NCBI RefSeq assembly: GCF_023630255.1
Contig: NZ_JALPRS010000001.1
Location: forward strand, 2,480,001 to 2,544,000
DNA: 64,000 nucleotides
Direction of reading: 5' to 3'
Origin: Pontibacter deserti
GTDB lineage: Bacteria > Bacteroidota > Bacteroidia > Cytophagales > Hymenobacteraceae
Positions within the stretch are counted from its first letter, which is position 1. The number at the start of each line of letters is the position of its first letter. Made by a program: the position numbers and the translations under genes. Below the pieces are notes generated by a model. It was given only the letters and a program-made list of their open reading frames with translations, did no database searches and was not told the origin of the DNA. This document shows, piece by piece, positions 33,511-62,317 of this stretch.

Positions 33511-34033
33511 CAACCACCCCTAACCCCTCCTTGTCTAAGGCGGGGAGCTTTTCTGCTACAGTTATAGTAGATGTTATAGTTTTATAGTTTCTGTTTAAAC
33601 ACCCCTATAGTCCCCTCAAGGGGACACTTCTGCTACTGCTATAGTTAGAAGTATAGTTTTATAGTTACAGTCCCCGAGCAGACAGGTCGCGACCTGTCTC
33701 TAAGGAACTATAACCACGAAAAAGCTAAACGCATATGCTTCTCCATTATACTATAAAGTAAGCTATCGAAGTGTTTTCAGTCTTTGGGTTGAGCGCCTTT
33801 GATTTGTTGCGGTGGCGCAGCCAACACGAGGTAACGAGGGTAGCTTCAAATCAGCAGCGCGATGCCCGAAGACGAGGCCCCGCGGCCGTGAGCGCACCAA
33901 AGTAAGCTATGATAACTGTAGGCAGGTAGAGCTCCCAGGATTGGTAGTTATTATGGAAGAAAAGGCTTGGTACAGGTTGCAAGCAGCATCAACTAAAGGA
34001 CATATAAGATCCCTCGACTGCGCTTGGGAGGAC
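33511..34033 (+). repeat. Composite intergenic element, copy A
   Basis: Fills most of an 836-bp spacer. Parts in order: CAACCACCCCTAACCCCTCC with AGG partner; CACCCCTATAGTCCCCTCAAGGGG; perfect palindrome GACAGGTCGCGACCTGTC at 33681-33698; a conserved core starting TCTTTGGG at 33781; and an end segment GGACATATAAGATCCCTCG near 34007. Copies B (56406-56928) and C (61874-62317, minus strand) have the same order. The core can fold: TCTTTGGG (33781-33788) pairs with CCCGAAGA (33865-33872), GCGC with GCGC, and TGATTTG (33800-33806) with CAAATCA (33847-33853). A 75-codon frame over it is not conserved in copy C and is not annotated. Confidence 0.88.
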
Positions 34034-56343: not shown

Positions 56344-56372
56344 AAACCGCCTGCAGCCTCTGCAGGCGGTTT
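56344..56372 (+). terminator. Terminator of the dps-ahpC-ahpD operon
   Basis: Stem AAACCGCCTGCAG / CTGCAGGCGGTTT with a 3-nt loop and TTGTTTATT after it, 20 bp beyond the ahpD stop. Confidence 0.95.
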
Positions 56373-56405: not shown

Positions 56406-56928
56406 CCAACCACCCCTACCCCTCCTTATCCAAGGAGGGGAATTTTACTGTTACTGCTATAGTTGGAGTTATAGTTTTATAATTGCTGCAGTAAACACCC
56501 CTATAGTCCCTTCAAGGGGACAGTGCTGCCACTACTGTAGTGTCAATAATAGTTCTATAGTTACAGACCATGAGCGGACAGGTCGCGACCTGTCCCTACG
56601 GAAATACATTGCTGATAAAGCTATACAACTATTGCATCTCTAAGTGACCATAGAAGCTACTATCGAACTGATCTCAGTCTTTGGGTTGAGCGCCTTGTGA
56701 ATATCTGGTGCCGCAGGCATTGCGACGCAGGAGCAAAAGAGATTCGCGCAGCGCAATGCCCGAAGACGGGGCCCCGCGGCCGTGAGTGCACCAAAGGAAA
56801 CGATGACAACTGTAGGTGGGTAAAGCTCCCAGGATTAGAAGTGGCTATGAAAGAAAGGCTTGTTTCCAGTTGCAAAAGACTTCAACTATAGGACATATAA
56901 GATGTCTCGGCTGACGCTCGAAATGACG
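56406..56928 (+). repeat. Composite intergenic element, copy B
   Basis: Same order as copy A: CCACCCC block, CACCCCTATAGTCCC block, palindrome GACAGGTCGCGACCTGTC at 56577-56594, core with TCTTTGGG (56678-56685) pairing CCCGAAGA (56759-56766), end segment GGACATATAAGATGTCTCG. Inside the core, a helix-3 segment differs fully from copies A and C, but GTGAATATCT (56697-56706) still pairs with AGAGATTCGC (56738-56747), and the apical GCC-GCA-GGC replaces the GGC-GCA-GCC of A. No conserved protein frame. Confidence 0.88.
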
Positions 56929-61873: not shown

Positions 61874-62317
61874 TCTCATTTCGAGCAGAGTAGAAAAATC
61901 TTATATGTCCTATGAGGTATATACTTGTTCAGATCTAGCCACACTTTCATAGTTACTATCAATCCTGGGAGCTTTACTTACCTATAGTTGCCATACCTGG
62001 CTTTGGTGCCCTCACGGCCGGGAGGCCTCGTCTTTGGGCCTAGCGCTGCTGATTTGAAGCTCCCCTCGTACCTCGGGTTGGCTGCGCCACCGCAATAAAT
62101 CAAAGGCGCTCCACCCAAAGACTGATATCAGTTCGATAGCTATAGGTCTTATAGTTTGAGAAGTAATAGTTTCATAGCTTTTCTCCTGGTTATAGTTTCG
62201 CAGGGACAGATAAACCTGTCCTTTCTCTTGGACTGTAACTATAAAGCTACAACCACAACTATAGCAAGGACGGTTAAAGCTCCCCGCCTTAGATAAGGAG
62301 GGGTTGGGGGTGGTTGG
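61874..62317 (-). repeat. Composite intergenic element, copy C
   Basis: Minus-strand copy inside a 747-bp spacer. Order preserved: CCACCCCCAACCCC block, hairpin GACAGGTTTATCTGTC (62205-62220, loop changed, arms kept), core from TCTTTGGG (62114-62121, minus) pairing CCCAAAGA (62031-62038) which here pairs perfectly where A and B have G-U, then GGACATATAAGATTTTT at the far end. Lacks the second CACCCC block seen in A and B. Confidence 0.86.

Follow-up and report, generated by a model that had tools for sequence, protein, structure and literature searches.

A dispersed repeat of Pontibacter and related bacteria contains a covarying, pseudoknotted core that is likely to act as RNA

The window, by which we mean the whole 64,000-nt stretch of DNA analysed here, contains three copies of a dispersed repeat whose conserved part is a core of about 125 nt with covarying helices and a pseudoknot. 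The repeat forms a family whose covarying fold lies on one strand, no protein gene recurs beside it, it is present or absent at given sites among relatives, and in one genus its copy number correlates with Y1/RAYT genes. We propose that the core strand would be transcribed and act as a folded RNA, that a partner protein may recognise the core's fold, and that REP-associated tyrosine transposases (RAYTs), acting in trans either on the REP-like palindromes that surround the core or on the core directly, would copy it as a passenger into gaps between genes. This combined mechanism, a folded element acting most likely as RNA and carried as a RAYT-moved passenger, is favoured by the covariation, the one-strand bias, dispersal without a protein, the higher identity of the core than of its modules, and the correlation with Y1_Tnp. 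We judge the chances that it is right to be evenly balanced, and the RAYT step is a guess with support.

Composite repeats in the window

Composite repeat A (33511..34033, plus strand) comprises 5' palindromic modules, the structured core and a 3' arm. Its 5' part (33511..33777) contains a GC-rich palindrome at 33524-33545, a palindrome at 33681-33698 (GACAGGTCGCGACCTGTC) and AT-rich spacers, and its 3' arm (33903..34033) ends in the letters GGACATATAAGATCCCTCGACTGCGCTTGGGAGGACA. Composite repeat B (56406..56928) is on the same strand and is flanked by terminator-like sites at 56344-56372 (plus strand) and 56985-56949 (minus strand); composite repeat C (61874..62317) is on the minus strand and has one module fewer than A and B. 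The structured cores occupy 33778..33902 in A, 56675..56796 in B and, on the minus strand, 62001..62124 in C. A scan of the window with the final covariance model returns exactly these three, with matches at 33775-33905 (E = 8.7e-36), 56672-56799 (E = 6.7e-34) and 61998-62127 (E = 1.6e-35). Direct and inverted repeats of 39-135 nt with 72-95% identity connect the three composite sites, and the similarities among A, B and C are not chance.

The sequences and coordinates given for the three composites in the initial annotation check out, with C on the minus strand; C is shorter and lacks the CCCCTATAGTCCCCTCAAGGGGAC module. Its pairings are likewise present as given: TCTTTGGG with CCCGAAGA in A and B and with CCCAAAGA in C for the closing helix, GCGC with GCGC in all copies, two versions of helix 3 in A and B, and an apical hairpin that reads GGC-GCA-GCC or GCC-GCA-GGC. 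The CCAAAG said to lie 3' of the core is found in all three window copies. Elsewhere in the window, positions 1-1862 contain two identical direct repeats of 300 nt at 908-1207 and 1448-1747, offset by 540, as well as three 158-nt copies with 77-100% identity, partly within an ORF at 900-2093.

Fold and covariation of the core

A closing helix of 10 bp leads through two stacked helices to a three-way junction bearing two hairpins, and the fold also includes a pseudoknot that was absent from the initial annotation. In copy A (plus strand), closing helix P1 pairs 33780-33789 with 33864-33873, and in the family-wide alignment A4 nine of its ten pairs show two-sided change. P2 (33793-33796 with 33857-33860, 4 bp) encloses P3 (33799-33806 with 33847-33854, 8 bp) and is followed inwards by a 2-bp step (33809-33810 with 33843-33844); within this stack (33793..33860), 13 of 14 pairs change on both sides in A4. 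The three-way junction carries hairpin P4 (33813-33823) and hairpin P5 (33824-33841, with GA/GA mid-stem), which together (33813..33841) show two-sided change in 9/9 pairs in A4. Hairpin P6 (GGCC/GGCC) pairs 33876-33879 with 33884-33887, and its loop (33881-33883) forms the pseudoknot with the downstream GXG at 33892-33894; the pseudoknot is 96.6% paired, with two-sided change at two of three pairs, again in A4.

The structure tested was drawn by hand from the sequences and also includes two invariant G-C pairs. Alignment A1 holds 39 of 40 loci of the window's own genome, with L032 omitted because of a 20-nt insert. Alignment A2 holds 49 cores (38 own, 11 from the genus) taken from loci L001-L055, and omits L031 and L054 (misfit to the search pattern), L032, L048 and L051 (inserts) and L041 (identical to L001). 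Alignment A4 holds 90 distinct family-wide cores, taken from 84 loci picked for diversity and tested with the two invariant pairs excluded, and A5 is based on 72 loci picked for diversity, with rows from low-copy genomes outside the family. As A4 was aligned with a model of the same fold, its counts are biased towards that fold; A2 is free of this bias.

In A2, 94.1% of cells are paired, compared with 87.1% after shuffling and 37-41% in slid structures, and 17 pairs show two-sided changes, in 113 cells against 31 in shuffles. The corresponding values for A4 are 95.1%, 69.3% and 36-41%; two-sided change affects 35 of the 40 pairs, in 855 cells compared with 274 in shuffles, and the covariation score is 0.605, against 0.173 for shuffles and at most 0.132 for slid structures. 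In A5, 94.5% of cells are paired (65.2% shuffled) and 35 of 37 pairs have changed on both sides. In each of A2, A4 and A5, none of 500 shuffles and no slid structure reaches the observed covariation; common ancestry inflates such counts, yet no control comes near. Variants of P1 include GTCTTTGGGT, GTCCTGGGGG, GTTTGGCTGT and GTCTTTCGCT, each with a matching partner, and P2 occurs as GCGC, GGGC and GCAC. The proposition that pairing differences exceed what sequence conservation explains is thus upheld with many copies, a covariance model and covariation far above controls, and the predicted fold is supported as strongly as comparison alone permits. As for the initial description of the whole repeat as a candidate structured RNA, the fold stands and action as RNA is likely, but the constrained unit, on comparative grounds, is the core of about 125 nt and not the 523-nt composite.

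Single-sequence folding of A, B and C is unremarkable (z of -2.6, -1.7 and -1.6), and the GTG/CAC hairpin that it chooses at the pseudoknot site was rejected, with zero two-sided change. The initial annotation also proposed two exclusive folds, in which the 5' CTTTGG would pair instead with the downstream CCAAAG; in the genus set (A2) none of the six alternative pairs changes on both sides. In A4 this alternative is 74.2% paired and scores 0.399, compared with 0.255 when shuffled and 0.24 when slid by one. Duplex energies with own and dealt-out tails are -5.59 and -5.03 kcal/mol overall (115 of 137 rows), and -5.91 and -5.47 kcal/mol in other genera, and within the genus own tails are no better (-6.70 and -6.72 kcal/mol). 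We therefore reject a conserved CTTTGG/CCAAAG switch, there being none within the genus and a weak tendency left in other genera.

Copy number and distribution

The window's own genome contains at least 40 scored core copies plus two short matches, and the 5' module occurs at further places in it among the matches listed. Among the 40 own copies, repetition is seen from about 250 nt upstream of the query start, fading some 300 nt downstream of that point. BLAST finds the core in 36 of 50 genomes of the genus, and a model derived from A2 finds it in 70 of the 204 genomes of the family. Counted more fully in 23 of those 70 that lie outside the genus, the matches number 3 to at least 148 in 22 genomes; the remaining genome (G166, genus g4) has one weak match (E = 7.9e-4). 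Within the order 37 of 390 genomes match, ten of them outside the family and spread across four other families, and a sample of the phylum has matches in 11 of 395 genomes. Beyond the order, the sequence of the G884 match, from one family of the class, makes a convincing case for a true match, and that of G757, from the same family, is probably true as well. A 23-letter core pattern, applied to named genomes, recovers at least 120 stretches, the best 80 of which are all in Pontibacter, Rufibacter or Sabulibacter. In low-copy genomes the flanks are unrelated from the core edges or near them, G412 and G884 sharing about 15-25 nt more on the 5' side, and the repeated unit in these genomes is therefore about 110-155 nt. 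A branched fold with a covarying pseudoknot has thus been kept over several families despite near-complete sequence change.

Phage and plasmid collections and searches with viral-contig patterns gave zero matches. None of the 4227 families of Rfam 15 matches the core at gathering or relaxed thresholds; there are only weak, sub-threshold hits, either elsewhere or to miRNA models, the latter on a palindrome of copy A and, in L097, spanning two cores that form an inverted pair. Bacteroidales-1, Flavo-1, 6S-flavo and other RNAs are, in PMC2864571, structured RNA candidates from the same phylum that likewise came from comparative genomics, and the core differs from Rfam's Bacteroidetes RNAs in matching no family of that release. 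A literature search found no paper naming the element in its title or at the start of its abstract. If transcribed, the core would constitute a class of RNA that Rfam 15 lacks, and culturable bacteria would carry dozens of its loci in each genome.

Hits of 60 nt to the model in G632, G610 and G691, and weak ones in G633 and G609, were not counted as members. In G632 (L364, L372, L374, L377, L379) and G610 (L366) these are short repeats in which a simple hairpin is followed by AGGCC-(C)CNGC-GGCC-ATGAGC; their similarity to the model is confined to its closing helix and pseudoknot portion, and five model matches in G632 fall within 8 kb. They are possibly a minimal relative.

Conservation of the core and its modules

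Across 37 of the 40 own loci, mean pairwise identity is 0.855 in the core, compared with 0.743 and 0.767 for two segments of the 5' side, 0.743 for the 3' arm and 0.642 for shuffled arms, and the core and arm identities are uncorrelated (-0.04). Either the core has been held by selection after insertion, or cores have been exchanged between copies. Cores in other families do not share the composite's remaining parts. On the proposed mechanism, the 523-nt composite would combine an ancient RNA core with REP-type palindromes particular to the genus. Among 38 own rows, private changes break intact pairs 15 times against 22.8 by chance (p = 0.0065) in a test whose copies were gathered by similarity, which favours intact ones; five more private changes hit pairs already broken (0.5 expected), and 20 of 27 private stem changes end unpaired.

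Association with RAYT transposases

No protein gene recurs beside cores across 119 loci (L001-L119); two large ORF clusters near cores are frames through the element itself, and the other clusters comprise at most four loci each. Among the 50 genus genomes, Y1_Tnp (PF01797) is found in 41 of 43 genomes with the element and in two of the seven others (Fisher p = 1.9e-4); the two element genomes without it, G037 and G046, have two and one model matches. The rank correlation of Y1_Tnp with model count (best 16 per genome) is 0.67 (p = 8.6e-8, ignoring phylogeny), and with BLAST candidates 0.63. For RVT_1 the association gives p = 0.7, with rho of -0.03 for model count and -0.13 for BLAST candidates; all of these correlations concern two protein families only, in one genus, with kinship ignored. 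We rejected a reverse transcriptase as the mover on this lack of correlation, RVT_1 having no match in the own genome and none in 23 of 43 carriers. G037 has 14 RVT_1 matches, many identical in score, alongside its two core matches, and these are probably recently amplified reverse-transcriptase elements.

We examined 20 of the listed Y1 loci and tested five of the proteins. Most frames are about 170-230 codons long and some are broken; one RAYT frame of the own genome (L384) is interrupted by a stop. NF047646 (REP-associated tyrosine transposase) is the best family for all five proteins, four of them above the cut-off, and perfect palindromes lie on at least one side of eight of ten RAYT genes examined. 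The sequence GGCAGTTGCAAACTGCC, which is a 5' module of copies in genus g5, probably Rufibacter, also adjoins three of the 20 RAYT genes (L389, L392 and L398). Movement by RAYTs is favoured by the NF047646 proteins and by this occurrence of GGCAGTTGCAAACTGCC both in copies and beside RAYT genes. Against it, no core lies within about 2 kb of the RAYT genes at any of the 20 loci, the own-copy palindrome GGACAGGTCGCGACCTGTCC is at none of them, and the correlation is uncorrected for phylogeny. The combined mechanism also has to accommodate low-copy families that have the core without REP-like modules, and private changes that still break pairs. At L385-L403 there are several RAYT lineages per Pontibacter genome, with differing palindromes alongside.

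In PMC2817692, rayt genes are described as flanked by REPs, with REP number tracking the presence of RAYTs. Compared with REPINs and BIMEs (PMC2817692, PMC3116915), the element is similarly non-coding, dispersed, extragenic, present in many copies and without a gene of its own, its copy number tracks RAYT genes (in one genus), and it has REP-like palindromes and compensatory changes. It differs in that the core is a branched fold closed by 10 bp, with a covarying pseudoknot, rather than two inverted REPs, in that the core exists without REP modules in other families, and in that no core flanks the 20 RAYT loci examined. If RAYTs move the element, REP palindromes are not their only cargo, and RAYT mobility, which is itself poorly understood, could be assayed naturally with this element.

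A bolder reading is that the core would be a protein-free mobile pseudoknotted RNA of about 125 nt, itself the selfish unit, hitching on RAYT-type transposases or an unknown RNP. We put this forward tentatively and with more doubt than belief. If true, there would be up to more than 100 folded-RNA loci per genome, spread over Cytophagales plus one or more additional families of the class, and the element would be a bacterial counterpart of a SINE in which the conserved part is an RNA fold. To our knowledge, protein-free bacterial repeats are mostly simple hairpins. Retrozymes and SINE-like elements (compare PMC4918200) are likewise non-autonomous mobile repeats with a structured RNA as the conserved part; this element differs in being bacterial, in a genome with zero RVT_1 matches, and in having a copy number independent of reverse transcriptases.

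The folding strand

In A4, cells with G-U outnumber those with A-C by 158 to 29 (316 to 200 when shuffled). Among own copies the ratio is 107 to 13 in the core and 14 to 10 in two palindromic modules (p = 0.0008), and U-G is the commonest pair type at two core positions. The covariation and the excess of G-U over A-C together indicate that one strand has been selected to fold, and that the folding strand is the strand drawn. Selection on one strand fits RNA and would be compatible with single-stranded DNA; we consider it likely that the folding strand acts as RNA.

Several observations weigh against the RNA part. The promoter motif TANNTTTG shows no enrichment 5' of own cores (38 against 30.6), no intrinsic terminator lies within 200 nt 3' of the core in any of 40 own copies, and no promoter or terminator was recognised on the element's own strand except the 5' palindrome, which in A and B itself scores as terminator-like. 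There is also no sense bias relative to neighbouring genes (see below), and terminator-like sites lie around A and B: in a scan that covered these two copies, B is between two such sites and A follows one. Motifs resembling TANNTTTG are enriched 3' of own cores (42 against 16.2 expected), with 12 of 40 own copies having one in the bin at +180 from the core start.

Since neighbouring genes have terminator-like sites ahead of A and B, the strongest competing explanation is that the repeat works as single-stranded DNA. The repeat would then be an elaborate REPIN-like element that functions only as folded DNA, its structure being recognised by a Y1-type transposase during replication. This is consistent with A and B being outside host transcripts, as judged by those sites, with the correlation of copy number with Y1/RAYT genes, and with the compensatory changes that REPINs, moved as DNA, also show according to PMC3116915. 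It does not account for G-U cells far above A-C cells or for U-G as the commonest type at two positions. Moreover, a covarying pseudoknot and three-way junction exceed a REP hairpin, the core is not made of two inverted REPs, and the replication-strand bias in G028 is not significant (24/39, p = 0.20, from 41 places sorted by hand with two by the skew switch left out). On this evidence we think a DNA-only element unlikely.

Insertion sites and neighbouring genes

We compared orthologous sites in 10 of 14 genomes searched. The site C core is present in six of these ten relatives (G009, G010, G017, G028, G038 and G043) and absent by model search from G014, G026, G045 and G049, and the site B core is present in three (G009, G014 and G038). 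G045 has kept the outer modules at site C with the core missing. Over the site C region, G043 and G010 each share 78% identity with the own genome, which suggests long retention of the core in both. The ends of the element are not defined by recent insertion pairs, the best pair among 99 elements having 92.5% identity over 228 nt, and the empty sites are too diverged to read ends, target site or duplications. As to features of DDE-type MITEs, there is no terminal inverted repeat at the core edges, and the ends are too eroded for target-site duplications.

Gene context was taken from long open frames rather than annotation. For the 38 own copies with both neighbours called, 18 are convergent, 14 tandem sense, five tandem antisense and one divergent; among 86 named loci, 31 are convergent, 25 and 19 tandem, and 11 divergent, compared with 60 convergent, 173 tandem and 79 divergent among 312 background gaps. 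Copies are thus enriched at convergent gene ends (31/86 against 60/312, p = 0.002) and avoid divergent gaps (p = 0.013). At tandem genes there is no significant sense bias, either for own copies (14 to 5, p = 0.064) or for named loci (25 to 19, p = 0.45).

The enrichment at convergent gene ends would suit a host small RNA or 3'-end element, acting in gene ends, mRNA stability or attenuation, that multiplies by duplication or exchange and is not selfish. Such a function is also compatible with one genus outside the family, in which four genomes each have a single copy, in the same gap between two same-strand genes; with the site C core in six of ten relatives, two of them about 22% diverged over the region; and with pair-breaking private changes being fewer than expected by chance. 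However, copy number ranges from 0 to at least 148 among related genomes, there is no common neighbour gene, presence varies at both sites tested, and sense bias is lacking. We regard a host function of this kind as quite improbable.

HEARO and omega RNAs are compact pseudoknotted RNAs linked with mobile DNA. The core has the same general character, and sequences of low-copy genomes diverge directly after its 3' end in a guide-like manner, so it might be an orphan guide-RNA scaffold (omega RNA or reRNA) serving a TnpB- or IscB-type nuclease in trans. Against this, the core matches neither HEARO, RAGATH-18 nor any other Rfam family, no nuclease gene recurs beside cores at the 119 loci, and own copies with both flanks conserved leave no room for a guide, which makes a scaffold of this sort very hard to credit. 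The IS607 TnpB reRNA with RAGATH-18, as described in PMC11061315, is likewise a compact pseudoknotted RNA tied to mobile DNA; the core differs from it in having no Rfam match, no adjacent nuclease gene and conserved own flanks on both sides.

Chimeric, paired and interrupted copies

Drift in an ordinary intergenic DNA repeat with no selected fold could produce chimeric or damaged copies, such as L035, L039 and L040 with their broken helix 3, and private stem changes that mostly end unpaired, but we give it next to no credence, since in three alignments the covariation surpasses every one of 500 shuffles and every slid structure, with several pair types at most positions.

Cores of genus g2 (L108, L100, L097, L103, L161, L163, L164, L173 and L175) often occur as head-to-head inverted pairs with 3' ends outward, about 150-450 nt apart, and L090, of genus g1 (that of the window), is alike. 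L032, L048, L051 and the site C copy of G010 (L197) have, in core loops or stems, some 20 nt of GC-rich inserted sequence resembling AGGGGCCCCTACCCCC, as though a further palindromic repeat had inserted itself there. Four of the six G412 cores (L214, L221, L226 and L233) have the palindrome GCCTGCCTGCCGGTAGGCAGG in their hairpin region.
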